DNA from: Branchiostoma floridae
Taxonomy: Eukaryota > Chordata > Leptocardii > Amphioxiformes > Branchiostomatidae
Assembly (NCBI RefSeq): GCF_000003815.2
Contig: NC_049981.1
Span: 2,346,010-2,410,009 of the forward strand
Direction: 5' to 3'
DNA: 64,000 nt
Positions within the stretch are counted from its first letter, which is position 1; each line of letters begins with the position of its first letter. Positions 1,032-57,145 of this stretch are shown here, piece after piece. The notes under the pieces are model-generated. The model was not told the DNA's origin, searched no databases, and worked only from the letters and a program-made list of their open reading frames with translations. Both the position numbers and the translations under genes were made by a program.

Positions 1032-2170
1032 TGCTTAATTACTTTATACTTTTTATTTTCTTCTTTAATAAATGACAAGGTATCTTTTAGCAGGTTGAAA
1101 TCTATCTATTGGAATAAACTTCGAGGATGAGAATTGTGTCTGTGACTGCTGTGAACTTTGTATGTTTTATCATTTGTTTGTATGTCTTAATTCGATTCAT
1201 GGAACTAATTCTTGAATCCATCGAGTGACAGAAGTAGCCATAGTTTCAAAATATTATGAATATGTCACTCTTTTTGCCTACCAACTTGCCCAAAGGCAGA
1301 AGAAAAAGAACTAACCCTCCAACCCGCGACTCGGCTGACTTCGCCTTCCAATATCGTGCCCTTACGGCCTCAAAAATGTCTAAGGGACTACCTTTACCTT
1401 TTGTCTGTTCGTTGTATGTGATATAGTTCAAATAAGTTATGAAATACTAAAAAAAAAAAAAAAAAACGCGAAATCGGAGGGAATAACTGATGTAGTTCGG
1501 CCCACCCCTCTTGACTCGCCCGTAGTACAGTCCAAACATCCCCATCGTGCGGCGATTATTAACTCATAACCCTGGAGTGTCGGAGCGGCTCTATACAGCA
1601 GTATAAACATACGGTGGGCGGACAGGGCACTTCTGCGGGCAAACAGGTCTGTATAAAGGCACTACACAACCTGGGCAAGAGTCAGGAGACAAGTAACTGT
1701 TGCCTCGCGTCGCTGCCATCAAAACGTCTTACAAAACGTCTAGGTCTTGAAATCTTGCAAACTTTTTGGTACGTTCTCATCTATCAAATCCAACTTGAGA
1801 TCTCCTCAACCTCTACTCAAACCCGGCCGGTAGGAAGAGGAAAACTGTGACATCTATCCGTGCCGTCGTCGCCGAAAACGTTTCACTTTAGATCTTGCAA
1901 AATTCTAATCTAAAAGACGAAATCTTCGCAGACTTTTCTCAAACCCAGGTGAGAGTCAGGGTTTAAACGAAGTGTATCGGTTTCAAGTCGTCCTGAAAAA
2001 CATCGAAGTCTCCAGATCTTGCAAACATTGTAGGTGCGTATTCAATTCACGCCTGGTAGTCTCGTAACCGAACTTTCTTCAGAGACGCCAAAGTCTTCAA
2101 CTTCTACAAAACGCATACGTTTTCACGTCCAAGTGTAAACCTTTCAGGCATCCTGCGAACCGTCGTACGA

Positions 2171-5065
2171 ATGTCTGCTATGAGCTGGTCTGTGTGGGTC
2201 TTACTTCTGGCTGTGACAGCGAGCTGTCAGGTAAGTTCCTGTTTATATTTAAGATTGGTCATGTACTGCTTCACATGTTTTAATTCATTGGTATGACTGC
2301 GTTGCATTTCTTGTTGTTGCATTCCTTGTTTTGCATTTCTTGGCACAGTTAAGAACACATGCACTAACGTACTAAGTGCCCTAAAGTCGCAAAATCATCC
2401 CTTGCAGATGATGTGTTTTTTTGAGAGGATGTTTATCGATGGAAAGAGTAAAATTTAATGTATTATCTGTCTTCCGTCGTTTCCCCGGCCTAGCTAGTAC
2501 TGATTATGACCGTTACATGCACTGCGCATGCAATATGACGACAGTATACTGTAATATCGCGGCCAGTGTTACCAGTATAGTAAATCCGCAATCGGATACT
2601 CTATGTATATACTTTTATAGTTCTGCGTTTGCCCCAAAGTACAAGCTATGGATGGTTGCTCGAAGTTGTCTTCATAACCGAGACATATGCCTTAGTCAAT
2701 CTGACTTTAATTTTGAACTTCAACTTCAGTTATTATATTTCAGATGTTAATACTATGGCAGCTGTAGACAGATTGTATGTTTACAAGGCACTTATAGTTG
2801 GATCAGAACGATTAGGAACGTGCAGTACGTGTTTTATAAGAATAAAGCAGCCGACAATTCTCAAGTACTTTTGTCCAGTGTTCAGTCCACGGTTACTATA
2901 GTAGTTGTGTGCAGCCGGTCTTTTCACATATCGCTACTTAAAGGATCCTATTGTAGGTTTGAAACGTTCTACATACAATGCGTGCCTCTTAAGAATAAAA
3001 AAAATACCTATCGTGTGAGTATTAAACAAAGGACCTGTTAAATGTAAGTTAACTATTGACAGCTGGTATGGTCACAGGGTGGCTATGGTAATAATGGAAT
3101 GATTAGAAAGTTCTACAGCACATGCCTTAAACTTTCAAGTTGTGGCGCACTAAAACAGCTGACCGGCTATTAATAAGATCCCATGGTTATGGCTATGGGG
3201 CTAGGTGAGCGGGTACAGGCAACATACAATACACAGTTTCAGGATATTCAACAAAAGTTGCTTATTGTTATTTCGTGTTTTTCACTCCTTTTTGACAGGC
3301 TGCACCCAGTGTGGTCTCTGATAACGAGAGTCTCGTGAGAAATGGCGAGATAGATTTGGACGACCGCATTTCACCTGTGGGGTGGACAGGTGTCGTAGAT
3401 GTGCTGCCACCTGACCTGGCACCCCTGCAAAACAATGGTAAGTACCGAGAAAGGAATATTGTCGTCAATTGAAATGAAGAATTGAAAATGTATAACAACG
3501 AGACGTGCAGATTCTGAAAAGTATTTCTTGTAATAGTCTGCTTTCTTGAAGGATAGTACAAATGTATTATCATTATGGAGGTTTTTATCAATTTGTTAAC
3601 AGCTATTAACACATTTTCACCAACATTTTCAGCTGATTCATTCAGTGTACCAAAGAGGCAGCAAAACCCACGCGACCCAATCCGGAACGGAAAGAGGCAG
3701 GACAACCCACTGGATCCAATCCGGAACGGAAAGAGACAGGACAGCCCATTGGATCCAATCCGGAACGGAAAGAGGCGGGACAACCCACTAGATCCAATCC
3801 GGAACGGAAAGAGACAGGACAACCCACTAGATCCAATCCGGAACGGAAAGAGACAGGACAACCCACTAGATCCAATCCGGAACGGAAAGAGGCAGCGCAA
3901 CCCGCTTGACCCAATCCTGAACGGAAAGAGGCAGCAAAACCCACTCGACTCAATCCGAAACGGCAAGAGGCAGCAAAACCCACTCGACCCGATCCGGAAC
4001 GGCAAGAGGCAGCAAAACCCACTCGACCCGATCCGGAACGAAAAGAGGCAGCAAAACCCACTCGACCCGATCCGGAACGGAAAGAGGCAGCAAAACCCAC
4101 TCGACCCAATCCGGAACGGAAAGAGGCAGCAAAACCCACTCGACCCGATCCGGAACGGAAAGAGGCAGCAAAATCCACTCGACCCAATCCGGAACGGAAA
4201 GAGGCAGCAAAACCCACTCGACCCAATCCGAAACGGCAAGAGGCAGCAAAACCCACTCGACCCGATCCGGAACGGAAAGAGGCAGCAAAACCCACTCGAC
4301 CCAATCCGGAACGGAAAGAGGCAGCAAAACCCACTCGACCCGATCCGGAACGGAAAGAGGCAGCAAAATCCACTCGACCCAATCCGGAACGGAAAGAGGC
4401 AGCAAAACCCACTCGACCCAATCCGGAACGGAAAGAGGCAGCAAAACCCACTCGACCCAATCCGGAACGGAAAGAGGCAGGACAACCCACTCGACCCAAT
4501 CCGGAACGGAAAGAGGCAGCAAAACCCACTCGACCCAATCCGGAACGGAAAGAGGCAGCAAAACCCACTCGACCCAATCCGGAACGGAAAGAGGCAGCAA
4601 AACCCACTCGACCCAATCCGGAACGGAAAGAGACAGGACAACCCACTCGACCCAATCCGGAACGGAAAGAGGCAGGACAACCCACTCGACCCAATCCGGA
4701 ACGGAAAGAGGCAGCAAAACCCACTCGACCCAATCCGGAACGGAAAGAGACAGGACAACCCACTCGACCCAATCCGGAACGGAAAGAGACAGGACAACCC
4801 ACTCGACCCAATTCGGAACGGAAAGAGGCAGCAAAACCCACTCGACCCGATCCGGAACGGAAAGAGGCAGCAAAACCCACTCGACCCAATCCGGAACGGC
4901 AAGAGGCAGCAAAACCCACTCGACCCAATCCGGAACGGAAAGAGACAGGACAACCCACTCGACCCAATCCGGAACGGCAAGAGGCAGCAAAACCCACTCG
5001 ACCCAATCCGGAACGGAAAGAGGCAGCAAAACCCACTCGACCCAATCCGGAACGGCAAAAAGTAG
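2171..5065 (+). CDS. Neuropeptide precursor with 36 amidated-peptide repeats
   Basis: Three exons (2171-2230, 3299-3437, 3633-5065) join in phase and give 543 residues. Exon 1 encodes a signal peptide (residues 1-20, hydrophobic core VWVLLLAVTA). M4 has a better start context than M1, but both keep the signal. Exon 2 encodes an acidic spacer without repeats. Exon 3 gives VPKR at residues 72-75 and then 36 units of 13 residues (76-543). The main unit is QQNPLDPIRNGKR (21 copies, the last ending GKK before the stop); QDNPLDPIRNGKR occurs 9 times. From family knowledge, Lys-Arg is the prohormone convertase site, Gly is the amide donor, and an N-terminal Gln can cyclise. Predicted products are therefore pyroGlu-QNPLDPIRN-amide and the QD form, secreted and probably acting on a GPCR. 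Variants are copy 1 (R for L), 3 (S for N), 4 (starts R), 7 (QR, ILN), 8 (DSIRN) and 10 (NEKR, so not amidated). I do not recognise the peptide family. Confidence 0.88.
3659..5062 (+). repeat. Coding 39-bp tandem array, exactly 36 units
   Basis: 1404 bases equal 36 x 39. The units are nearly identical and encode one peptide plus its GKR site each. Units near the 5' end are the most diverged, while central and 3' units are homogenised. Blocks recur at multiples of 39: a distinctive AAATCC-containing unit near 4141 recurs near 4336, 195 bp or five units later. Because the unit contains no stop in several frames, long open frames on both strands here are by-products. Confidence 0.97.
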
Positions 5066-5275: not shown

Positions 5276-5281
5276 AATAAA
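5276..5281 (+). terminator. Poly(A) signal AATAAA of the peptide gene
   Basis: AATAAA lies about 210 bases after the stop codon at 5065, in A/T-rich DNA. It is the first canonical signal downstream. Confidence 0.55.
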
Positions 5282-6067
5282 GTAAAGGCGAAAAAGAAGA
5301 GAGAGTGTCTTGAGTCTTGATTTTCGACTTAAGTTATGATTTAGATAAGTCTTTTGGTTGTATGTAAATTTTGGTGATTTTCAAAACATGCAAGTGAACC
5401 CCTTGAGCATCATCTTAACTATCTATGACCTTGTTATTAATATGACGTTAAACAGTAATCGCTCTGTCGGATCTTGACCTGAGCCCGGACCAGTGCCCTA
5501 TGACGTAGTAAGAAACAACAACCGTGATGTTGTCAGTTTAGTTCAGTTTATCCTCAGTCAACAGCAAACGCCCGATGGGACTTTGGCTTACGTAAATAGA
5601 AGTAAAAACGTCATATATGTCCACGTATATGTAGAATGGTAACTTACTCCAGGGCCACACAAATTACTAGTTACGATGGCAGTTTTTGGCGCAGTAAAAA
5701 GATTTGCTCACTCAATAGGGTGCATTTCCCTATTTTTTCACTAAGCGGCGCCACTGCACGGGTTAAGTCATCAAAATGCCAGAACGTCATCATAACAGCA
5801 TCGTACAGTGTAACGTATCTACCTACCTAGACCCTTGACCTCCAGGTCGTAAATTGTAAACAACAGTGTAAACTACTGTTTGGTAAGATATACCATGAGG
5901 ATAGGGCGGAACATGACTAACTTAGTTAACGAATTGTCAGCCTTAAAATTGCAGTCACACGATATGTAGTCTGGCACTGACCACCTGGTACAGGCAATTT
6001 CAGGTCATATAAAAACAGTCATGTCGTCCATTTTAGGTCTTCAGGTTAACTCTAATTGTGTATTCAG
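5282..6067. other. Intergenic gap
   Basis: No gene is visible. I looked here for the missing upstream exons of the fibrinogen-domain fragment at 6068 and found none. A polypyrimidine-poor TTCAG acceptor ends the stretch at 6067. Confidence 0.5.
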
Positions 6068-6430
6068 CAACAAGGTACCTACCTGAACAATCAGGCCTTC
6101 AGTGCTAAGGACGTGGACCGTGATGCATGGCATCCCGGTTCGTGTGCCAGCGGCCGCAGTATCGGAGGTACAGGTGGCTGGTGGTATAACTACAAGGCCT
6201 GTTCCTGGTCTTCCCTAAACGGTCCGTACTTACGCCCCTCCGATCGCACTGCAGCTGCTTATAGCGGCTGTGGTCTCTACTGGCACACTTTTGGTGGGCC
6301 TTATGATTCCTATCTGAAGAGGTCCAAAATGATGGTTCGTCCTGTTGACTTGTTGAATTCAAAGAAGAATTGTGAAGAAACAAGACTGAAGAATCTATTG
6401 TTTAGCATCTATACCCCTGATGGAGTTTAG
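6068..6430 (+). pseudogene. Orphan exon: C-terminal part of a fibrinogen-related domain
   Basis: The frame opens just after an acceptor-like ATTCAG. It encodes the C-terminal half of a fibrinogen-like globular domain: an F-S-x-K-D-x-D-x-D stretch (the region that binds calcium in the family), a GGWWYN motif, a nearby Cys in KACSWSSLNG, G-x-Y-W-H-T-F, and the typical LKRSKMMVRP ending. About 25 extra residues follow before the stop. The N-terminal half of the domain and any signal or coiled coil are absent upstream: the complete peptide gene lies 5' and no further domain exons are seen between. Complete fibrinogen-related proteins are secreted lectin-like molecules, many acting in innate immunity. 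This copy is probably a truncated duplicate, though a gene with distant exons cannot be excluded. Confidence 0.6.
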
Positions 6431-21893: not shown

Positions 21894-24800
21894 TTACTGA
21901 CCCCCTTGGCTAGTCCCTGGAATCCCGACATTAGCCTCTGGAGCCCCGAGTGTGTTCTTAATCTTCCCCATCAGTTCTTGGTTCTCGATGATCTTGTTGA
22001 CTACCTCCGAAGTGATGGGGACGCTGATCTGCTGCAGGTACCGCTCCACCAGTTGGCGGTCCTGAAGGGGGGTCCAGAAGATCCTCTCGATGCTGTCGAG
22101 AGCCTGTTGGTTCTGTAGAACCCCTTCTACAGTCTTGGGCGTTGCCTGCACCCCCATGCTCGACAGGTACGCCACGACCATCTGATGTTTATCAGCATTC
22201 CCAACTGAAACCTTCTCTACTGTCTGGGTATTCAGTGTAGAAGTCTGCCCTCCTGCGGAGGTACTTGGCACAGTCCGGAGCATTTCTCCATCCACAAATG
22301 GTTTCGGATTTCTAGTTTTCATTCCCAATGATTCCTTTTCATTTCCTGATGTCACGTCGATTATGACTTTGAAAATCTCCTCTGTAACTTGGACACCATC
22401 GTCGGACAGAACGTGCTGGCACATCTGCCGGACTCTCTCTCTTGCGACCACGGTTTTCTTGGGCAGACAGTCTACCGTAACTCTCCGTAAGAGTTGGAGT
22501 TTCCAGACAGACCCAGGAGGCAGTTGCAGGTGCTGTGCCAGCTGCTCGACCATCTTGTCATTGTTCTGTCCATCTCTCCAGACAGACTCAGACTTTCCCT
22601 TCAGCTCTTCTTCAAACGTGTTAATCCTGTCAACAACCTCCTCCTTCATCACTTCCCCATAGGTTCTCTCCACAAAACCAACCAACTTCTTACAAAATGG
22701 TAATAAAATTACAGTGCCTTCCCTGGTCTCTCTCAGGGCACCTGCAAAGTTTTGGGTGGCTCTTTGTGAGGCTGGACCAGGCAGCGCCAGGGTACTGACT
22801 GGTTGTGACTGCTGACCAGTTTGAACTAACAGGTAGGCTGGTTTACCTTCGGAATACAGAATGCCTGCCTGACTTACAGCTGGGCTTGCTGTTGTGCCCT
22901 GCTGTACACCGTGCTGTGTCCCCTGCTGTGTGCCCTGTCGTGTGCCTTGCTGTGCGCCCTGCTGTGCACCCGTCAGTGTGCCCTCTTGTGTGCCTTGTTG
23001 TGCGCCCTGTGACGCAGCTAGGTGTCGATGGGCCATGGTGTTCCTGATGTTATGCATGACCTGCTCATTCTGCAGTATCCCGCGAATCCCCTCCTCAGTG
23101 GCGGACATACCCTGCTGCTGCAGATAGGTCTTCACCATGTTCCAGTCCTCCCAGTTCTGGGCTTGGCCCATATCTTGAGACTTTGTGGCCCAACTGGTTG
23201 AGTTTTGGCCCATTTGCTGTCCCACAGCACTTGGAGCCTGTAGAGGCCACAACTGGGTGCTTGCAGTCTGCTGTTGTTTGGGGAAATATTTTGGGCCTCC
23301 CATCTCTCCTGGGCCCTTTTTGCTGCCTCTGGGACTTGGACTGTCACTTCTCTGTCGCTTTGCACTGTTTTGGCTGTTTCTGCCAGTCTGTAATGGTTTA
23401 TCTGGGATGTTGTGATGACTGGATTGAGACCTGTTTTGAGAACGATCCCGTGACAGACCATGACTGCTGGATCTGTGATCTCTTCTTTGACTCTGAGTGC
23501 TGGACCTATGATCTTTACTTTGACTTTTACTTCTGGATCTGTGATCCCTTCTACTACTGGATCTCTTATCTCTACCTTGACTTTTGGATCTGTGATCTCT
23601 ACCCTTGTTTTCATTACTGGGTCTGCGATCCCCTCTTCGACTGCTGGATCTATCCTCTCTACTCTGACTCTTGGATTTGTGATCCTCTTTCCTACTTTGA
23701 CTGCTAGATCTATGACCTCTATCCTGGATCTGTCTACTGGATCTCTTATCTTTGCCTTGACTCCGACTGTCAGATCTGTGATCCCTTCTCTGACTTTGGC
23801 TGTTGGATTTTCGATCTCTATCCTCCCTGCTACTCTTCAGGCTTTGATCTCTATCCTGTTTTTGGCTCTTACGTCTGCTCTCATCTCTGTCACTTCGATC
23901 CCCTTTCTCTGGTTCTCTTCCAAACTTGTCTTTTGCAGAGGAGCTTAGACTTTCTCTTCTGGGCTCCTGTTGAAGTCTTTTCTTGCTCCCAGGTAAATCT
24001 GTCCTTTCACTGTAAGAATCTCTCCTCTCTTTGTCCCTGCTACTAGTTTCATCACATGAGCTCAAGATAGTCCACTCATCTGCCCATGCCATCTCAGGCT
24101 GACTCCCTTGTGCAGCCCCACTGCCTGTTGTGTCTCCCTGTGCAGCCTCCCTGACTATGGCACCCCCCTGAACAGCCCCCCTGCTTGTGATCCCCCCCTG
24201 TGTCATTCCACTGTCTATGGCATCACCGAGGATGTCTGACAAGCACTCTTTGCCCCTGTCCGATCTGTACTGGTCCTTCTGCTGCAACAGGAAAGGGCTG
24301 GGGGTTCGGCTGATACTATGGGGAGGATTATCACCATGGATGCGGTCACCATGGAAACCTTGACCAGCAATTGGTCTTGCATACTCTTCATGGGGTACAG
24401 GGGCAACTCGCCGATCATATTCATCCAGGGCAGAGTGAGGACTTTGGTCTGGTGGCAAATTGCTCAAGTTCTGGAGCGTCGGCTCCTCCCTTCTGTCGCT
24501 CCCCATGTACGGAGCATCGCGTCTATCTGGTGGAGACTTATCGTGGGCCAGTGACCCACGTGCAGGATCATCTCCATAACTCCCTGCAGCTTCCTCAGGT
24601 CTGTATGGCTCTCTATGTCCATCGGCTGAGGCGTCTCTTCTGTATGGATCATAGTGGAACTCATCTTCTTCCCCCCTTTCCCTGGAACGGCTTCTTCCCC
24701 GCCGGTCCTCATTGTATCGTGGCTGCCGTCTGTAGTACGTGTCTCTCACATCTCCTTCACGTGACCAATCACGTGGTGCTGTGTCATCAGGGTGCGTCAG

Positions 24801-27701
24801 GGGACTGTCATCACGGCGAGGATCTCCATGGCGACTCCTGTGGTCGTACTGGGGAGGGCTCCTGTCATCATTGCGATGGTCTCCATAGCGACTCTTACGG
24901 TCATACTGGGGTGGGCTCCTATCGCCATGGAAAGATTCGGGACTCCTGTCCCTCCTGCTCTCTGATGTCATCGGCAAACTTCTATAATCTACGTCATGAT
25001 TAGCTGACATCTGCTGCTCAATGTGGTCTCCGTGGCGATCAGCCTCCAAGTGGGGGGCTTCTCGCAGGGCCCGCTCATCATCCAATGCTTTCCTCTCCTG
25101 AGCTAGACGCTCCCACTCTTTCTGCAGCAGCATTTTCTCAGCAGCAACATCCAACTGCGGAGCACCTCCCAATGTCTGCCCAGTCTGTGGCTGTAACTGT
25201 GACTGTTGCCCTGGTGGCTGAGGCCACTGCTGTTGCCCTGGTTGCTGAGGCCATTGCTGCTGTCCTGCTTGTCGAGGCCATTGCTGCTGCCCTACTTGCC
25301 GAGGCCATTGCTGTTGTCCTACTTGCCGAGGCCATTGCTGTTGCCATGCTGGCTGAGGCCATTGCTGCTGTCCTGCCTGCCGCGGCCATTGCTGCTGTCC
25401 TGCTTGCCGAGGCCATTGCTGCTGTCCTGCTTGCCGGGGCCATTGCTGTTGCCATGCTGACTCAGGCCATCGCTGCTGTCCTGCTTGCCGTGGCCATTGC
25501 TGCTGTCCTGCCTGCCATGGCCATTGCTGTTGCCCTTTTTGTCCCCATCTCTGTCCAATCTGTTGATGCTGCCCTCCCTGCTCCTTTTCACGCCACTTCC
25601 TGCACCGTTCTAACCTCTTAGCACAAAACTGCTGACTGTTAAATGCTCCCAGGTCCCCTACAATGACTTCGCTTATTGCTAAGAACTTGGACCCAAACTC
25701 CTCCCTTAACAGATTTTGACAGAGTTGCCCAGTTTTCTGACGGGCAAACTCAGTTTTCTTTGGCAAACAGTCAACGACAACCCTCTTTAACAGTTGGAGT
25801 TTCTGGACGGAACCTGAAGGCAGGTTCTGTTTGTCTGACAGCTGCTCAATCATCTTGTCGGTCGGGTGCCAGTTTGAGCAATCCTTCCCGTTCAGCTCCT
25901 CTTCAAACTCATTGATCCGCTGCTCGACCTGGAACTTCATTTTCATTGGGTAGTTTCGCTTTGCCAGTGAAATCACCCTTTGAGCAAATGGTTCTGAGAT
26001 CAAAGAGCCTCCCCCCGCTTCTCTTTGAGACCCAGCAGGTTGTTGGGTGGCTCCTTGTGAGGATGCACCAGGCAGGGCTGGTTGTGACACCTGACCGGTT
26101 TGATCTGAAACTCTGCCTGGTTCTTGTACGGCTGAGTTTCCACTTTGCTGTGCAGCATTTTCCGGGGTCTCTATGACATTACCTGCATCCCCTGCTATGA
26201 CTCCGGTTAGCGTGAAGAACTTGGGACCAAACTCCTCCCTTAAAAGGTCTCGACAGAACTGCCAAGATTTCAGCCACGCGGTCTGATTCATCTGCGGTAA
26301 ACAGTCAACGACGACCCTCTTTAACAGCTGGAGTTTCCACACAGAGCCCGAAGGCAGTTGCTGTTTAACTGACAGCTGATCAATGATCTTGTCGGCAGGG
26401 ATCAAGTTTACGCGATCGTTTCCATTCAGCTCCTCTTTAAACTTGTTGATGCGTTGTGCAACATTGAACCTCATCCTTATAGGGTAGTTTCTCTTCACCA
26501 GTGAAAGCAACTTCTTACAAAATGGTTCTGAGCATAAACTGCCTTCTGAGGTTTCTTTTTGGGCGGTTCCTTGTGAAGACAGACCAGGAAGGGCTGGTTG
26601 TGTCGACTCCTGGCTGGTTTGATCTGAAACTCTGTCTGGTTCTGGTAAGGTTGGGTTCCCGCTTTCCCCTGCGACATCTGTTGGGAGCTTTACGACAGTT
26701 GTTGCATTCTCTAAAATGACTGGGGTTAGTGTGAGGAACTTCAGCCCAAACTCCACCCTCAACACCTCTTGACAGAACTGTTGACATTTCTGATATGCCG
26801 TTTTAGTCTTCTTCTGGAAACAGTCGGCAATGACTCTCTTTAGGAGCTGGAGTTTCCACACTGACCCTGGAGGTAGCCGATGTTGGTTTGACACCTGTTC
26901 GAGTATCTTATCGCCTGGGTGCAAGTTTACGCGATCATTTCCACTAAGCTCCCACTCAAATTTGTTTATCCGGCATTCCACCTTGTATTTAGACCTAATC
27001 GGGTAGTCTTTCTTCACCTGTGCGAGCAACCTCTGAGCAAACGGTTTTAAGATCAAAGAACCTTCCTTGGGTTCTTTCTGCGTACCGGCATAGTGTTGGG
27101 TGGTTTCTTGACCGGTTTGATCTGAAACTCCACCTGGTTTTGGTGAGAATACGTTTTCAGTTTGCCGGGTGGGATTTTTTGGGACTGTGACAAAAATGAC
27201 ATCTAGCGTGTCTGGGATGTTTTGCTGCCTGATTTCCCCCTGCAGGACTTGCTCACACAAAATGCGAGCTCTCTCTCTCTGGAAGGTATTATTTATTGAG
27301 AGGCAGCTTGTAATCACTCGCCGTAAGAGACGGATTTTCCACACAGCACCAGCAGGAAGCTGAAGACGCTCTGCCAACTCGCGGACTAACCTGTAGTTCT
27401 GCGCACCCACCCAAGGAAGATCTACACTTCCTCTCATTTCATCTTTAAACTTGTCGATAAAGTTCCCAACTCTTGTCTTTCTATTTGCTGTGTAGTTTTT
27501 CTCCATCAAAGTAAGCAACTTCTGGCAAAATGGATCTTGGAGTAAAGGGCCTTCTGGCATGTTCAGTCCTGGGCTGTCTTGCCCCGGCCTGTTCTGCTCC
27601 CCTGACATGTCCTGGTCAGATCTGGTAGACTCTAATGTCTCCTGATCCAACTTGCTGTCCTCCTCACTTTCCTGTGTCTGTTCTTTTTCCACATCACCCA
27701 T
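21894..27701 (-). CDS. Gene A: large intronless RS-rich protein with five novel helical domains
   Basis: A single frame of 1935 residues; the start GCCATGG is a good context. I do not recognise the family. Four diverged copies of a ~110-residue predicted helical domain lie at about 57-170, 219-330, 393-503 and 570-681, and a fifth at about 1667-1782. Each has PF-x2-(K/R)-(L/V)(L/I), a basic helix, (K/R)(M/I)(V/I)EQL-like and LPPGSVWKLQLLKRV. Residues 722-862 repeat QQQWPRQAG. About 1033-1154 is a block shared with gene B (PEEAAGSY, RRDAPY, LPPDQ, HGDRIHGD). About 1250-1435 is rich in Arg-Ser, as in splicing-related proteins. Three short ~35-residue helical repeats (M-V-x2-YL-x4-V-x-AT) lie near 1515, 1840 and 1880. 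A nuclear RNA-related role is plausible but inferred only from composition. Confidence 0.85.
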   Translation of the reverse strand: MGDVEKEQTQESEEDSKLDQETLESTRSDQDMSGEQNRPGQDSPGLNMPEGPLLQDPFCQKLLTLMEKNYTANRKTRVGNFIDKFKDEMRGSVDLPWVGAQNYRLVRELAERLQLPAGAVWKIRLLRRVITSCLSINNTFQRERARILCEQVLQGEIRQQNIPDTLDVIFVTVPKNPTRQTENVFSPKPGGVSDQTGQETTQHYAGTQKEPKEGSLILKPFAQRLLAQVKKDYPIRSKYKVECRINKFEWELSGNDRVNLHPGDKILEQVSNQHRLPPGSVWKLQLLKRVIADCFQKKTKTAYQKCQQFCQEVLRVEFGLKFLTLTPVILENATTVVKLPTDVAGESGNPTLPEPDRVSDQTSQESTQPALPGLSSQGTAQKETSEGSLCSEPFCKKLLSLVKRNYPIRMRFNVAQRINKFKEELNGNDRVNLIPADKIIDQLSVKQQLPSGSVWKLQLLKRVVVDCLPQMNQTAWLKSWQFCRDLLREEFGPKFFTLTGVIAGDAGNVIETPENAAQQSGNSAVQEPGRVSDQTGQVSQPALPGASSQGATQQPAGSQREAGGGSLISEPFAQRVISLAKRNYPMKMKFQVEQRINEFEEELNGKDCSNWHPTDKMIEQLSDKQNLPSGSVQKLQLLKRVVVDCLPKKTEFARQKTGQLCQNLLREEFGSKFLAISEVIVGDLGAFNSQQFCAKRLERCRKWREKEQGGQHQQIGQRWGQKGQQQWPWQAGQQQWPRQAGQQRWPESAWQQQWPRQAGQQQWPRQAGQQQWPRQAGQQQWPQPAWQQQWPRQVGQQQWPRQVGQQQWPRQAGQQQWPQQPGQQQWPQPPGQQSQLQPQTGQTLGGAPQLDVAAEKMLLQKEWERLAQERKALDDERALREAPHLEADRHGDHIEQQMSANHDVDYRSLPMTSESRRDRSPESFHGDRSPPQYDRKSRYGDHRNDDRSPPQYDHRSRHGDPRRDDSPLTHPDDTAPRDWSREGDVRDTYYRRQPRYNEDRRGRSRSRERGEEDEFHYDPYRRDASADGHREPYRPEEAAGSYGDDPARGSLAHDKSPPDRRDAPYMGSDRREEPTLQNLSNLPPDQSPHSALDEYDRRVAPVPHEEYARPIAGQGFHGDRIHGDNPPHSISRTPSPFLLQQKDQYRSDRGKECLSDILGDAIDSGMTQGGITSRGAVQGGAIVREAAQGDTTGSGAAQGSQPEMAWADEWTILSSCDETSSRDKERRDSYSERTDLPGSKKRLQQEPRRESLSSSAKDKFGREPEKGDRSDRDESRRKSQKQDRDQSLKSSREDRDRKSNSQSQRRDHRSDSRSQGKDKRSSRQIQDRGHRSSSQSRKEDHKSKSQSREDRSSSRRGDRRPSNENKGRDHRSKSQGRDKRSSSRRDHRSRSKSQSKDHRSSTQSQRRDHRSSSHGLSRDRSQNRSQSSHHNIPDKPLQTGRNSQNSAKRQRSDSPSPRGSKKGPGEMGGPKYFPKQQQTASTQLWPLQAPSAVGQQMGQNSTSWATKSQDMGQAQNWEDWNMVKTYLQQQGMSATEEGIRGILQNEQVMHNIRNTMAHRHLAASQGAQQGTQEGTLTGAQQGAQQGTRQGTQQGTQHGVQQGTTASPAVSQAGILYSEGKPAYLLVQTGQQSQPVSTLALPGPASQRATQNFAGALRETREGTVILLPFCKKLVGFVERTYGEVMKEEVVDRINTFEEELKGKSESVWRDGQNNDKMVEQLAQHLQLPPGSVWKLQLLRRVTVDCLPKKTVVARERVRQMCQHVLSDDGVQVTEEIFKVIIDVTSGNEKESLGMKTRNPKPFVDGEMLRTVPSTSAGGQTSTLNTQTVEKVSVGNADKHQMVVAYLSSMGVQATPKTVEGVLQNQQALDSIERIFWTPLQDRQLVERYLQQISVPITSEVVNKIIENQELMGKIKNTLGAPEANVGIPGTSQGGQ
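25120..25540 (-). repeat. Coding minisatellite for the Gln-Trp-Pro repeat of gene A
   Basis: About 15 units of 27 bp encode QQQWPRQAG and variants (QQQWPQPAW, QQQWPRQVG, QQQWPQQPG). The frame stays open throughout. The tract joins the fourth helical domain to the charged middle of the protein. Confidence 0.85.
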
Positions 27702-28164
27702 GGCGACGCTTCACAGCCCCACCCTTCCTGCCCTGTGACAAAGGAACAAGTGTCTTCAAACTTTCACTCAAGGCAGAGACAACACTCGAGAAGCCCCTTG
27801 CAGAATTGTCCAGTTTGTACCCTCCCTGTCACATCTACCTGCAGGTAGCCATACATGTGTAATTTTATGACTAAAAGTCCGAGTCATGTGACTCACAACT
27901 TAGTGATGGCATCTGTCAATCATCGTAGGATGCCCGCCAATCCCTGCACACAGCCCGCGTGCAGGAGGCTCAAGTTCACTGTTGCTTTACTGGATGTTGA
28001 TTGGCTTCTCTCTGACAACTTTTGTCAGTGAACTGTGAAGAAGTCCTCAGCAGTTGAACAGCGTTTTCTTGCTGAAAATTCCTTCTCTGGAGGACCTGCA
28101 AAGAAAAGGCAGAACAGAGTGAGGGGTGCATACATAACATGGCAGGAGCAGCTACCATGTGTCA

Positions 28165-50725: not shown

Positions 50726-51781
50726 AGAGTTGATGACTGTTGGATACTAGTACTTGATTTACACCATTAGCTATAACACAATTTGTAAGTGCAGTTTTGG
50801 TTATTTGGTTGCTACTACAATACACTCGCAGGCACACACACTATAACACACACATACATACATACAATATATATGTAACATATACAACACACAATTTACA
50901 AGTAAATACAAGTTGTGATGATAGAATATCCTGTTTGTTTTTGTTCTATCTACATGTGTCGGTTACTGTTACGTTATCTGACTCTGAAGATTTCACCTTT
51001 CAAATCATTCTTTTTACTTTTCAGGATGAAAGGCTCAGTTCCCATATAGCATACATTACTGTGCGCAACTTACAGAATGGTTCAAAAGTAGCTGATGTCT
51101 TTTGTATACCAATCTATTTGTTATCTTCTGCAAGTTGATCATGGAAAGAACATTTACTTACATATACTTGTTGGTATCCCAAACAAATTTATGCATTTTC
51201 AGCATTTTTCACAGCTAGCTTTGAACCCTGCTGCATTCTGTGTCCTGGCATGGTAGTTCCCTGGATGCTGCAGTCATGTGACTGTTATATGTTAACCACA
51301 TGTTAATCACATGATGGCCACATGACAGCAGGCCCTGCCATGCCCTGTGCCACAGTTAGGGTCTATTTCTCACACTATGCTCTGCTTGGTTTTGCAGGAC
51401 CAATTGGCAGGAATTTTGTTTCTGCCTGGTGACCATCCTTGACGGCAAACAAACAAACAAACAAATATTCAGCACAGCCAGGGTGGAAGTCCATACTCCT
51501 GCCATGCTGTGTGTTGATTAAGTGCATGTGTCAAGCTCGCAGCGTGCTAACCAAATGCAGTAGTTTTGGTCAAACTTCTCACAAAGCCACTGGGACAACT
51601 TCATAACAGGAGAACCTTTAGGTCGCACTCTGAGGACACAACTGAAAAACCCTCACACTTTGAAACTCCTGCATGTAGCTCCGAATCAAATGACAACATC
51701 CAGTCTTCATGATGGGATTCCACCACTGTAGCATAGAACTCTGAGTCTGAGAGCTTGCTGATCTGAAGTCTGAGAAGCAGC

Positions 51782-54700
51782 ATGAGTCAGAGGGTGGTGC
51801 AGAACCGTCAGGGGTGGAACAGACGGGGTTCCAACCGACCCGGGCAGAACCCAGGCAGGGGACCCAACCGACCCGGGCAAAACTCAAGCAGTGTCCACAG
51901 CAGGCTGGGGGTACCACGAGCAGGGAACGGGCCAAACCCTGGGGCCAGGAGGTGGCAGAACGTGGACCGGAGAACTGGAAGAGAGGGTGGGTTCGTTCAA
52001 GACGCGAGGGATCGTCTGGAGGAGAACAGACGGGCCTTGGAGTATGACCAGCCTGGCTTCCAACAAGCCTTAATCCAAGACAGCATCTTTGTTGTAGAGA
52101 ACCAAGTGTATGGCCAAGACACGGCTGAAAACCAGGTGTATGGCCAAGATACCAATGAGGCACTGCCTTTGCTACAAGTGGAGACTGCGGCACAAAGTGA
52201 CGTGGACTATCGCCGCGACAATTCCTTACAGGTAACAGTGGAGCCCGGGCACCACGATGTGGACTACCGGCGCGTAAAGGTCAAAACCTCTGAGGCAGGA
52301 AGCTACGAGCGGGAACCAAGCCCAGGTCATCATGGCTATGACCGTTCCTATGACGACCCGCGCCAAGAACCCTACCAGACCTACCCTGGTGACTATCCTG
52401 AAGTTACTACCCGTGAGAGGTCTACTGAAAGAGATTTCATGGATCCATATGACAGTCGTATTGCACGCAGAGAAACTCCGGAACGAACCAACCTGGATAC
52501 ATTCGCTATTGGGGCCGAAAGGGCAGGGGTCAGAGATAGAAGCCGATCTCGAACCCGTGACGACAGACATCGGTTTTCCCAGGACAGAAATAGGCGCTCC
52601 AGGGAAGGTGACCAAGAGCGGGACAATGACAGGCGCTCTAGAAATTCTGATAGGGGAGAGGACAGGCGCTCCAGAGAAAATTATCAAGAACGTGACAACA
52701 ACAGGCGCTCCAGGGACGTAGATGTAGGATTAGACAATGACAGGCGTTCTGGAGAAGTGGGAGCAGGGTCTGACTGGGAGGCTCAGCTGCGAGAAAGAGC
52801 GCGGGAGTTTGGGAGGCAGCAGAAAGAGGAGGAAAGGAGACAAGGGCGAAGCAGCCAGGAGAGGCCTGACCCGTGGAGGGGGTCATCTCGTGAGGGGCGT
52901 GACAGTCACAGGGCTAGTCAAGAGAGACAACAGAGGAGCCGCTCGTATGACAGAGTACAGGCAGATACGTATGACAGAGTACAGGTAGACGCGTATGTAC
53001 TGGGAGACACGTATGGCAGAGATGCATATGGCAAGGTACAAGAAGATCAGTATGATCATGATCAGTACAGGAGGGAAGAGTTGGTAGATCCCAGCAGAGA
53101 TTACCATCCTGAAGAGGCTGCAGGGAGTTACAGAGATGACCGACCCTACCCTGGGCCTGGGTCACCACCCTACAATGACCCTGCCTTTCCAGCTGAACCT
53201 TCCGCAGACAGGCGTGATGCTCCATACAACAGAAGAGACAGAAGGGGGGACCAGACACTTCAACAAGCCAGTCACGACGACGTCTTCAGGAACTTGCCAC
53301 CGGACCAAACTCCTCACTATGCCGTAGACGAATATGGTCGTCCAGTTGCCCCTCTACATCACGAAGAGTATGTGAATCCCCCTTCGGGTCTGGGTATCCA
53401 TGGCGACCGTATCCATGGTGACCGCAATGCCAGGAGCAGCAGCCGAACTCCCAGCCCTGTAGTGTTGCATGGGCGACAGGAGGACCTGTATCAACTTGGC
53501 AGGAGGAAGGACCACTCCTCCGACAGTCTGTACTCCGAAGTCAGCTCCAAACACAGCCCGGATCTGGACACCAGGGGGGAGTACAGGCCTGCAGACAGTA
53601 GGGCAGATTACAGACCTACAGATAGGAGGGGGGAGTACAGACCTTTGGACACCAGGGGGGACCCTTATGGCACGGACTATGGGGACATGGATAGACAGGA
53701 ACAAGACTATCTGTATGATGTAACAGAGATGCGAGGTGGGGAAAGGAGAGGAAGTCCAGAGTATCGGCCTTTAGGAGAGCCTGGTGGGGGAGAGCAACAC
53801 TACCCAAACAGCCGAGACGACAGAAGGGAGGGGATCGATGAGCAGCACTCCTGGAACAGCCAAACGGAAAGAAGGGGCAAGCAGCACTCCTGGAACAGCC
53901 GAGAGGAGAGGAGGGAAGGTAGAGATGCCAGGGCCCGAAGTGATGCAGGAAGGAGAGAGAGACACACTGAAGAGAAGTTAGGGACAACAGAAAGAGACAG
54001 AGACTCAAGGAACCGGTATGGGAGGGAAGAGGATCCGGAGCAATCACGGAGCCATGATCAAGGCAGGAGGGACTCACAAGGCAGGAAGGAACAACGTACA
54101 TCCTCCCGGGGTGGAGATAGAAATAGAAGTAGGGATGGAAGAGACTATGAACCAGAGAGTGATTTACAGAGAAGTTTAGCAGATGAGATCAACAAGATTC
54201 GGCAGGAGCCCGATCATAGGGACAGACAGCGGGGAAAAGACCGCAGGGGAAGTAGCAGGAGTGGTCGTGAAGACTCCCAGGGCCGTCAGCGCAGTAGCCG
54301 CGGAGATTCCCGGGACCAGCAGCGCAGCAGCCGCGGAGATTCCCGGGGACAGCAGCGCAGTCAGCAGAGTTACCACAAGGACTCAGAAAAGTCCACAGTT
54401 GGCAGCAGTGTCAGTAGAAGTAACAAGCAGCAGTCACCATCAAAGCCGACAGATAAAGACTCAAGAAGTGCGAAGCGTAAGAGGAGTCCTAGCCCAAGAC
54501 GTAAGTCCGGTAGGAGACAAGAGGACTTGAGTGGAAGTCGTAGCTCGAGAGACATGCCACATGGTAAAGAAGGATATGCCAGAAGACAACGAAGCACAAA
54601 AGACGACGTTCGTGGAAAGGACAATGACAGAAAAAGACATGAGGGCTCAAGAGGCCAGTCTCTTGGAAGGAAAGAAGACACCAGACAAAGGAGAACTCGT

Positions 54701-57145
54701 GGTTCCAGTCCACATGACCAACCCAACCGAAGTCAGCAGCAGGGTGCAGATGAGGAAAGCAGTCAGCTGTGGCCTCTGCAGCCCCCCAGTACTGTGGCCC
54801 AACAGCCGGGCCAGTCTGCCTCCGATTGGGCCCTGGAAACCCCAGAACTTCAAGGAGGCCTGCCACCATGGCAGCCTGTTAATACGCAGGGAAGTTACCA
54901 GGACTTTGGGAGGGATGCAAGGTCTTTTTACCAGAGCACTCAGCAGAATGTAGGAGAGGGGAGAGAAAGGGGGAGAACTATTGTGGAACTACAGCCAGCA
55001 GTGGAAATGGGTGATGCCAACACCCCTGGTACAACAGCAGACCAGTGGGAACAGAAAAATGCGGGAAGCAAAACATCAGAATCCCTGCCACACCAGTCTC
55101 AGGCAAGCCCTACCTCACAGAAGGGTGCAACTCAATCAAACCTGGTGGAAATACCTTCCTTTCAACAAGCCCAGGAAATGAAGAAACAGAAAAACAAGAA
55201 GTCCCTGGTGGTACCGTCCACCCCCCAGCGCTTCCCTCCCAACATGAGCTTCCCAGAGAAGCTGCTGGTCCTGGTGGAGAGCTACGGTGGGCGGACCCGA
55301 CAGGAGGTGGAGACGCGCATCCACAAGTACGAGAAGGAGGTGAAGGACAACTACCTGAATTTAGGGAAGGATGAGAACAACGACGACAAGATGGTGGACC
55401 ATCTTGGGGAACACCTGCCTCCTGGTGGACTCTGGAAGCTCAAACTCCTCCGCAGGATCATTGTCGAGTGTCTCCCCAAGAGAACTGTAGAAGCCAAGAA
55501 CAAAATCCTGTGGATGTGCAAGCAGCTGCTGTCGCCAGAAGGAATCGAAGTGACAGAGGACATCTTCACTGCACTGATGGCAAAGAGAATCACAAAGTTT
55601 GGCTCTAGGACTCCCACTCCAGCCACTGGAGCAAACTTGCAGCAGTTCGAGCCCAAACAGGTAGAGAATGAGGAGAAGCGAGACATGGTGGTGGAGTATC
55701 TGCAGAGGCTGGGCGTGCCGGCGACGCGCGAGGCCGTCAACGGGATGCTGAAAAACAACCAGATGTTGGAGAACATTGAGAAAACCTTCTGGATCCCGCA
55801 TCAGGACCGCCGATTGGTGGAGCGGTACCTGCAGCAGATCAATGTCCCCATCACTCCCGAGGCCGTCGACAAGATCATGGGAAACCCAGACATCATGTTC
55901 GACTTGCGGAAGACGTTTGAGGATCAGGAGTCCAAGGAAGAAGGGACCATTTCCCAGCAAGGTAAGGATGATGATGAACAGAGCAGCTCCATGGCAACAA
56001 GCTCCATGGCAACAAGCTCCACGGCAACACCATCACACAGACCACCTGCAAGCGTGTCAATGACTCAGCCAGGACCTGCCATCAACAACACCAAGTCTGA
56101 CACCTCAAGTGCAGGCTCCTACAAGTACCTCTTATCCACTGCTCATCATCATCAGGAAAGTCCTCCAGCAGCTTCTGCAGGAAGCACTGCAGCCTCTGTC
56201 ATGTACACGCAATCCTCGTCTCACATGTCCCAGGCCTCTACTCGGGGCCTGGCTGAGACAGACTCCCACCAACAGCGAGCACAAAACAACCCTTACATAA
56301 GGATGATGTACAGTGAGCAGCAGAGACAGCTGGACAGTTCACAGCGGGGTTACAGTGAGGCCCAGCAGAGAGCAGAGGTGCAGCAGAGATCAGAGGCGCA
56401 GCAGAGAGCAGAGGCGCAGCAGAGAGCAGAGGTGCACCAGAGAGCAGAGGTGCAGCAGAGCGGGTTGTACAGAGGTTATAACAGAGGCGACAGCCTTCAA
56501 CAGAGTGCATCAGTAGAGTCACGTGGGAGAGCTCCCGGAATGCCAGCTCAGCAGCAGATGTACGCAACCACTGCAGCACCCCAGCAGCCCATCTCTGATC
56601 GGCTACAGCACCTCTCCGGGCAGCCCATGGCAGGGACAAGAGCCATCGGACCAGCTACTGCGGGACAGTTCCAGCACCAAACTGCACCTGTAGGATCAGG
56701 TGTTTCAGGACAGTTCCAGCACCAGGCTGCAGTTGCGGGGTCAGGCGCCATGGGACAGTTACAGCACCAACATACAGGGGCAGGAGCAGCATTTATGGGA
56801 CCAGCTCCTGGGGTACCAGGTGCTGCAGGATGGTTACAGCACCAGGGCCCAGCCACAATGGGGCAGTTTCAGTACCAGGGACCAGGCACTGCAGGACAGT
56901 TACAGCACCAAACTGCAGCTATGGGACCAGGTGGCATGGGAGAGAACCTGGAGAGCCTCCGCATGTTCATCATGGACGTGTTTCGGCAGGTGAACCTTTC
57001 CTGGGTACCGGAGTCCACCGTGCAGGAGATCCTGAGGAACCCGGAACTTGTGCAGCAGATCCAGCGATTCCGCGCCGTGGGCATGCCACTCGAACTGCTC
57101 GTCAACTACCTGAAGCAGTGTCTACAACTGGTCAACCGTCCATAG
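51782..57145 (+). CDS. Gene B: large intronless RS-rich paralogue of gene A
   Basis: A single frame of 1787 residues. The order mirrors gene A: an Arg/Ser/Asp-rich first half, a shared block at about 440-570 (PEEAAGSYRDD, RRDAPY, LPPDQTPHYAVDEY, HGDRIHGDR, SSRTPSP), more RS-like sequence (about 700-990), a SQLWPLQPPST motif near 995, one copy of the ~110-residue helical domain (about 1155-1266, with LPPGGLWKLKLLRRI), and two ~35-residue helical repeats (about 1300-1380, MVVEYLQRLGVPAT and LVERYLQQINVPIT). A diverged third such repeat closes the protein (about 1728-1770). Gln-rich tracts lie between (QQRAE units near 1530, QFQHQ units near 1630-1710). It lacks the four N-terminal domain copies and the Gln-Trp-Pro tract of gene A. 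Function is unknown; composition suggests a nuclear RNA-associated protein. Confidence 0.85.
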   Translation: MSQRVVQNRQGWNRRGSNRPGQNPGRGPNRPGQNSSSVHSRLGVPRAGNGPNPGARRWQNVDRRTGREGGFVQDARDRLEENRRALEYDQPGFQQALIQDSIFVVENQVYGQDTAENQVYGQDTNEALPLLQVETAAQSDVDYRRDNSLQVTVEPGHHDVDYRRVKVKTSEAGSYEREPSPGHHGYDRSYDDPRQEPYQTYPGDYPEVTTRERSTERDFMDPYDSRIARRETPERTNLDTFAIGAERAGVRDRSRSRTRDDRHRFSQDRNRRSREGDQERDNDRRSRNSDRGEDRRSRENYQERDNNRRSRDVDVGLDNDRRSGEVGAGSDWEAQLRERAREFGRQQKEEERRQGRSSQERPDPWRGSSREGRDSHRASQERQQRSRSYDRVQADTYDRVQVDAYVLGDTYGRDAYGKVQEDQYDHDQYRREELVDPSRDYHPEEAAGSYRDDRPYPGPGSPPYNDPAFPAEPSADRRDAPYNRRDRRGDQTLQQASHDDVFRNLPPDQTPHYAVDEYGRPVAPLHHEEYVNPPSGLGIHGDRIHGDRNARSSSRTPSPVVLHGRQEDLYQLGRRKDHSSDSLYSEVSSKHSPDLDTRGEYRPADSRADYRPTDRRGEYRPLDTRGDPYGTDYGDMDRQEQDYLYDVTEMRGGERRGSPEYRPLGEPGGGEQHYPNSRDDRREGIDEQHSWNSQTERRGKQHSWNSREERREGRDARARSDAGRRERHTEEKLGTTERDRDSRNRYGREEDPEQSRSHDQGRRDSQGRKEQRTSSRGGDRNRSRDGRDYEPESDLQRSLADEINKIRQEPDHRDRQRGKDRRGSSRSGREDSQGRQRSSRGDSRDQQRSSRGDSRGQQRSQQSYHKDSEKSTVGSSVSRSNKQQSPSKPTDKDSRSAKRKRSPSPRRKSGRRQEDLSGSRSSRDMPHGKEGYARRQRSTKDDVRGKDNDRKRHEGSRGQSLGRKEDTRQRRTRGSSPHDQPNRSQQQGADEESSQLWPLQPPSTVAQQPGQSASDWALETPELQGGLPPWQPVNTQGSYQDFGRDARSFYQSTQQNVGEGRERGRTIVELQPAVEMGDANTPGTTADQWEQKNAGSKTSESLPHQSQASPTSQKGATQSNLVEIPSFQQAQEMKKQKNKKSLVVPSTPQRFPPNMSFPEKLLVLVESYGGRTRQEVETRIHKYEKEVKDNYLNLGKDENNDDKMVDHLGEHLPPGGLWKLKLLRRIIVECLPKRTVEAKNKILWMCKQLLSPEGIEVTEDIFTALMAKRITKFGSRTPTPATGANLQQFEPKQVENEEKRDMVVEYLQRLGVPATREAVNGMLKNNQMLENIEKTFWIPHQDRRLVERYLQQINVPITPEAVDKIMGNPDIMFDLRKTFEDQESKEEGTISQQGKDDDEQSSSMATSSMATSSTATPSHRPPASVSMTQPGPAINNTKSDTSSAGSYKYLLSTAHHHQESPPAASAGSTAASVMYTQSSSHMSQASTRGLAETDSHQQRAQNNPYIRMMYSEQQRQLDSSQRGYSEAQQRAEVQQRSEAQQRAEAQQRAEVHQRAEVQQSGLYRGYNRGDSLQQSASVESRGRAPGMPAQQQMYATTAAPQQPISDRLQHLSGQPMAGTRAIGPATAGQFQHQTAPVGSGVSGQFQHQAAVAGSGAMGQLQHQHTGAGAAFMGPAPGVPGAAGWLQHQGPATMGQFQYQGPGTAGQLQHQTAAMGPGGMGENLESLRMFIMDVFRQVNLSWVPESTVQEILRNPELVQQIQRFRAVGMPLELLVNYLKQCLQLVNRP

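Follow-up and report, generated by a model that had tools for sequence, protein, structure and literature searches.

In the genome of the lancelet Branchiostoma floridae, a tandem array of 39-base units reads in one frame as a long run of nearly identical peptides separated by pairs of basic residues. This raises the question of whether the locus is a gene for secreted messenger peptides, a gene for secreted peptides of another kind, or a repeat that happens to be open in one frame. The window analysed here, by which the whole stretch of 64,000 nucleotides is meant (C3:2346010-2410009), belongs to a 513-Mb assembly that was searched for relatives of the array. A lancelet fluorescent-protein query gave 68 exon matches in this assembly, of which the best-scoring was 85% identical. 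One exon matches lancelet proteins of solved structure, lanFP10A best (E 3.7e-29), and a further exon of that C4 gene group (L050) differs by eye from the lanFP10A segment at one of 59 residues, in keeping with a Branchiostoma genome. As judged from its sequence, the locus is quite probably a lancelet prohormone gene encoding a secreted multi-copy precursor, most likely that of a peptide hormone or neuropeptide. Lancelets stand at the base of the chordates, and any messengers found in them alone would aid in distinguishing the ancestral chordate set from lineage inventions.

Gene structure

The gene is predicted to occupy positions 2171-5065 of the window, where three spliced exons encode an uninterrupted protein of 543 residues followed by a stop codon (Table 1). 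Both introns start with the consensus donor GTAAGT, end at acceptable AG acceptors and have phases 0 and then 1, which recovers the signal peptide and three in-phase exons proposed in the initial annotation, the signal peptide being called by eye from its hydrophobic core. An in-frame stop lies upstream at 2057. The leader of the protein comprises 75 residues and ends in SVPKR, with its KR standing directly before unit 1 of the array, and the single cysteine of the whole protein is encoded in exon 1. A Pfam search with the N-terminal 166 residues returned 0 families, and a PDB search with the first 140 residues returned 0 matches.

Table 1. Predicted features of the peptide gene, in window coordinates
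Feature	Position	Strand	Description
TATA-like boxes	1602..1657	+	TATAAA at 1602 and at 1652, 5' of the start codon; match to the consensus only
Exon 1	2171..2230	+	Carries the start codon and encodes the hydrophobic signal peptide MSAMSWSVWVLLLAVTASCQ; phase-0 donor CAG|GTAAGT
Exon 2	3299..3437	+	Acidic leader AAPSVVSDNESLVRNGEIDLDDRISPVGWTGVVDVLPPDLAPLQNN; phase-1 donor ATG|GTAAGT
Exon 3	3633..5065	+	ADSFSVPKR (first codon split with exon 2), then 36 units and stop TAG
Peptide array	3659..5062	+	36 units of 39 bases (13 residues), no indel
AATAAA polyadenylation signal	5276..5281	+	211 bases past the stop codon

The peptide array

The array had been described as 36 uninterrupted units of 13 residues, nearly all closed by GKR and the last by GKK, and a count agrees with this: 34 units end in GKR, unit 10 in EKR and unit 36 in GKK, with TAG directly after it. 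At the protein level, 20 units have the sequence QQNPLDPIRNGKR and nine the sequence QDNPLDPIRNGKR, the other seven being singletons. The predicted products are (pyro)QQNPLDPIRN-amide from 21 units and (pyro)QDNPLDPIRN-amide from nine, together with single-residue or similar variants from five units and a non-amidated peptide from unit 10.

At the DNA level the array contains 21 distinct 39-mers, with units 11-14 and units 16-19 presenting an identical order of DNA variants, and all but one of the seven protein singletons fall within units 1-10. The concentration of singletons in this part of the array and the repeated order of variants fit a growth of the other units by unequal exchange, a process by which the uniformity of the units is probably also maintained. 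The copy number of 36 is that of the assembly and depends on it. It had been called very high for a neuropeptide precursor; high it is, but not exceptional, as the Renilla Antho-RFamide precursor likewise contains 36 copies according to the relevant passage of PMC7266959.

Probable relatives on C14 and C3

A gene on C14 and a cluster of five genes on C3 encode related peptides, and since both lie outside the window they are invisible from the window alone. The genome search with the protein sequence of the window units found one other such array, at C14:6059903-6060523 on the minus strand (E 5.8e-11, a value inflated by the repeats). The frame of this gene runs over 414 residues (L009:2912-4156, minus strand) and holds 16 copies of DPLSPI[V/S]NGQGKR, alongside other peptides (TPLDPIENGQYKR, SSPLHPMENGQFKR, LPLLSPIENGQLKR and GVLSPIENGDYQKR) and two with two cysteines each (QYDCSVDGTCDALGNGFPGKR and DVKCLWDPSDSICFGKKKR). 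Changes between its copies are silent in 16 of 18 cases, a proportion that was reached in 0 of 2000 randomisations, while the best alternative frame has 11 of 18 silent changes (P 0.01) and is interrupted by one stop. A candidate signal exon with a phase-0 donor, MKTTVIAAAALCLLATTFAAPTGKHE, is located 11.6 kb upstream and was chosen by eye from six candidates listed by a script. A Pfam search of the C14 frame returned 0 families.

The C14 gene resembles the window gene in its 39-base units, its PLxPIxNG core, its cleavage at KR and the repetition of its units, of which there are 16. By contrast, the glycine of its NG is internal and the predicted amide falls on the next glutamine (NGQ-GKR), and the gene carries the extra two-cysteine peptides, which the window gene lacks.

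A shortened query from the C14 gene revealed its homology (E 2.9e-33 and weaker) to genes that stand in tandem at C3:349-395 kb. This cluster consists of five genes, counted from their own signal-peptide exons (MLF[AP]V...LCLCSMQAAGL), leader exons and peptide exons, five of each kind, with one peptide exon split; the genome searches also covered C3:366000-384999 inside it. The exons for signal peptide, leader and peptides follow one another as in the window gene, but the cluster genes have no tandem array. In one of them the intron phases, read by eye, are 1 and then 0, and a Pfam search of one cluster frame returned 0 families. The encoded peptides are SP[IV]ANGQG, LLSLIRNGQF and two-cysteine peptides mostly ending in FPGKR; release of SPIANGQG is uncertain because NR, not KR, follows it.

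Seen across C3:346000-404999 (L021, L022, L023, L024), the five tandem genes present predicted amidated two-cysteine peptides such as QYDCSPNDVNCDVGGNGFP-GKR, whose arrangement of C-x(5-6)-C with a Pro-amide is reminiscent of calcitonin-type ends, in peptides of much smaller size. In the gene at C3:359-361 kb (L022:4395-4811 with 3087-3311) the peptide exon is in two pieces and the cysteine peptides are altered, so that this gene may be broken or diverging.

When a query mixed from the units of the family was used, only the C14 and window arrays scored below E 0.1; as the query was built from those two arrays, this result says merely that no third array competes. Further weak matches of the same query fall on C6 and C10 (E 0.14-2.2). 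Another on C16 (E 0.19) was rejected by eye as an unrelated open frame.

Common ancestry or convergence

The window, C14 and C3 peptides have the core PLxPIxNG in common, and in the window units it stands between dibasic sites. Among the C14 peptides, TPLDPIENGQY matches QQNPLDPIRN best, with a score that seven of 20,000 shuffled versions of the window peptide reached, and one of 20,000 when the following shared glycine was kept. Over the stretch TPLDPIENG, seven of nine positions are identical to the window peptide. The similarity comprises these nine residues and was picked as the best match of a genome search; with about 100 precursors assumed, the odds come to about 0.5-4%.

These figures have to be weighed against the idea that the window gene and the C14 and C3 genes are all real precursors which arrived at the same core by chance, an explanation that is compatible with a prohormone function for each of them. 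No similarity was seen beyond the peptide: a genome search with the window leader returned the window itself as the sole match, and neither a leader homologous to those of the C14/C3 family nor its two-cysteine FP-amide peptides were found in the window protein. Moreover, the intron phases are 0/1 in the window gene as against 1/0 in the C3 cluster gene that was read, the predicted amidation site differs, and the core amounts to six fixed residues only. The rarity of equal scores among the shuffles and the seven identities in nine argue the other way. Convergence is thus considered rather unlikely, and common ancestry of the window unit with the C14 peptides, and through C14 with those of C3, is considered probable.

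A common origin of the genes would imply a shift of the amidation site, as the glycine of C14 is internal and its predicted amide falls on the next glutamine. In the window gene the glycine of NG would serve as the amide donor, giving PIRN-amide, while in C14 the same glycine would be retained within PIxNGQ-amide. A tentative scheme, judged somewhat less likely than not, would be a lancelet family of about seven genes in which a PLxPIxNG ancestor gave rise to two ligand types by a shift of the amidation site, with the C14 and C3 genes also releasing a cyclic two-cysteine FP-amide hormone.

Predicted processing and probable function of the precursor

The initial annotation had proposed a secreted, dibasically cleaved and amidated multi-copy precursor, and the sequence supports this with a signal peptide, dibasic sites and a glycine before KR or KK in 35 of the 36 units, the exception being unit 10 (EKR), which has no amidation glycine. 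A motif published for finding precursors with multiple amidated copies, given in PMC6188537 as x(5,200)-G-[KR]-[KR]-x(2,35)-G-[KR]-[KR]..., was also tested on the protein, which matches it.

Maturation would begin with signal peptidase, which would take off roughly the first 20 residues of the precursor. A subtilisin-like prohormone convertase would cleave after each KR, and a carboxypeptidase would remove the KR pair (KK from unit 36). An amidating monooxygenase would then turn the glycine into a C-terminal amide, and glutaminyl cyclase would cyclise the N-terminal glutamine to pGlu. One precursor would yield about 21 copies of pGlu-QNPLDPIRN-amide and nine of pGlu-DNPLDPIRN-amide, in addition to five variants and one non-amidated unit, and the high copy number would raise the output per transcript. 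The computed [M+H]+ values are 1176.612 for pGlu-QNPLDPIRN-amide, 1163.580 for pGlu-DNPLDPIRN-amide and 1038.558 for the C14 peptide DPLSPIVNGQ-amide. We infer these steps from established processing rules, the cleavage and amidation sites being the part of the scheme that is visible in the sequence. Cu2_monooxygen is the domain class that includes the amidating monooxygenase, and 72 matches to it were found in the genome by a search which cannot separate the amidating enzyme from DBH-like enzymes.

With its two prolines, its predicted blocked ends and a charge near neutral, the 10-mer would fit a diffusible messenger that acts on a G-protein-coupled receptor. The signalling function and the neural role proposed for the peptides are plausible. 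A precursor processed in the same way could, however, supply epithelial, mucus or defence peptides that are released to the outside and carry no neural or hormonal signal. Secreted defence precursors also show high copy numbers and sequences without known relatives, and the window gene combines a high copy number with a sequence that has no known relatives outside this genome; defence genes often form varying tandem clusters as well, and the C3 relatives are such a cluster. On the other hand, these peptides of 10 residues, for which a count of residues gives a near-neutral charge of 0 or -1, contain two prolines and have ends predicted to be blocked, a combination unlike cationic amphipathic antimicrobials, and the peptide of the C14 relative is under strong constraint. 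A release to the outside without a signalling function is therefore regarded as improbable, and a hormone or neuropeptide precursor remains the preferred reading of the gene.

Tests against chance

On its own, a long open frame through the array means little. Between stops, the coding frame and five others run for 374-613 aa and span all or most of the array, and some frame stayed open in practically all of 100,000 mononucleotide-shuffled versions of the 39-mer (proportion 1.000 at the precision printed). Open frames carrying G[KR][KR] were found in 7.8% of the shuffled 39-mers and those carrying G[KR][KR]Q in 0.5% (n=100,000).

Tests of synonymy and codon usage confined to the window are equivocal as to the strand. 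In the coding frame, 12 of the 23 distinct changes from the consensus unit are synonymous (P 0.014), and in one antisense frame the count is also 12 of 23 (P 0.0185). The codon-usage score of exon 2 is 9.15, a value reached by three of 1820 overlapping open 138-mers presumed to be non-genic, and exons 1 and 2 joined score 6.17, below the 8.94 of one reverse frame over that stretch. The genome also contains unrelated satellites that are open in frame: weak matches to the window units on C10 (two), on C7 and at C3:13.49 Mb were assigned to this class and set aside.

The window gene is raised above chance by its combination of start codon, signal peptide, splice sites with consensus donors, KR before unit 1 and a stop directly past unit 36, together with the independent relative on C14 that is under clear coding constraint. 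With these features in place, and with the satellite look-alikes lacking dibasic-Gly punctuation by eye, a minisatellite that is open by chance and gives no functional peptide product is a very improbable account of the locus.

Comparison with known peptide systems

The window gene shares the general layout of multi-copy amidated precursors such as Renilla Antho-RFamide and the TRH precursors of echinoderms and vertebrates, that is, a signal peptide, tandem copies between basic sites and a glycine as amide donor. For the starfish TRH precursor, the pertinent part of PMC4772807 gives 11 copies of QWYTG and one other peptide. An N-terminal glutamine is common to TRH-type peptides and the window units, but NPLDPIRN-amide has neither an RFamide nor a pQxP-amide signature. 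The short QxPG or QxxxG units of the TRH type are absent, since each of the 36 units spans 13 residues and holds a 10-residue peptide followed by G or E and then KR or KK. The RFG end of the RFamide type is absent as well, the dibasic pair being preceded by RNG in 34 of the 36 units, by LNG in one and by RNE in one.

The string RNG also occurs in NG peptides of the NPS/CCAP type, the B. floridae peptide being listed in an excerpt of PMC5818035 as SFRNGVamide. The neurophysin domain of NG peptide precursors is absent from the window protein, in which the array reaches the stop codon and the N-terminal 166 residues have no Pfam match. In addition, the mature window peptide would lack NG because the glycine would be consumed as amide donor.

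Searches for NPLDPIRN, related unit strings and amide names gave no exact match in open-access papers, with figures, supplements and the two neuropeptide catalogues of 2013 in which the peptide would most likely appear (Mirabeau and Joly; Jekely) lying outside this scope. By these exact-string searches, the view that the peptide is undescribed is not contradicted. Of interest beyond the single precursor is what is probably a lancelet family of some seven peptide genes, in which the point of amidation differs between the branches. Such a family, which has several paralogues and is predicted to have two ligand types, offers concrete peptides to try on the orphan receptors of Branchiostoma.

Other features of the window

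Just downstream of the peptide gene, an open stretch at window 6056-6430 (+) gave no Pfam match up to E 1; by eye it looks like the end of a fibrinogen-like domain (GGWWYNYKACSWSSLNGPY). Two very long open frames rich in SR and RD are also present, one of 1938 aa at 21897-27710 (-) and one of 1792 aa at 51767-57142 (+), with no Pfam match for the former and one sub-threshold match (E 0.05) for the latter. A VWKL.LL.R-like motif and a DR.LVERYLQQI motif occur in both frames, which by eye look like paralogues.
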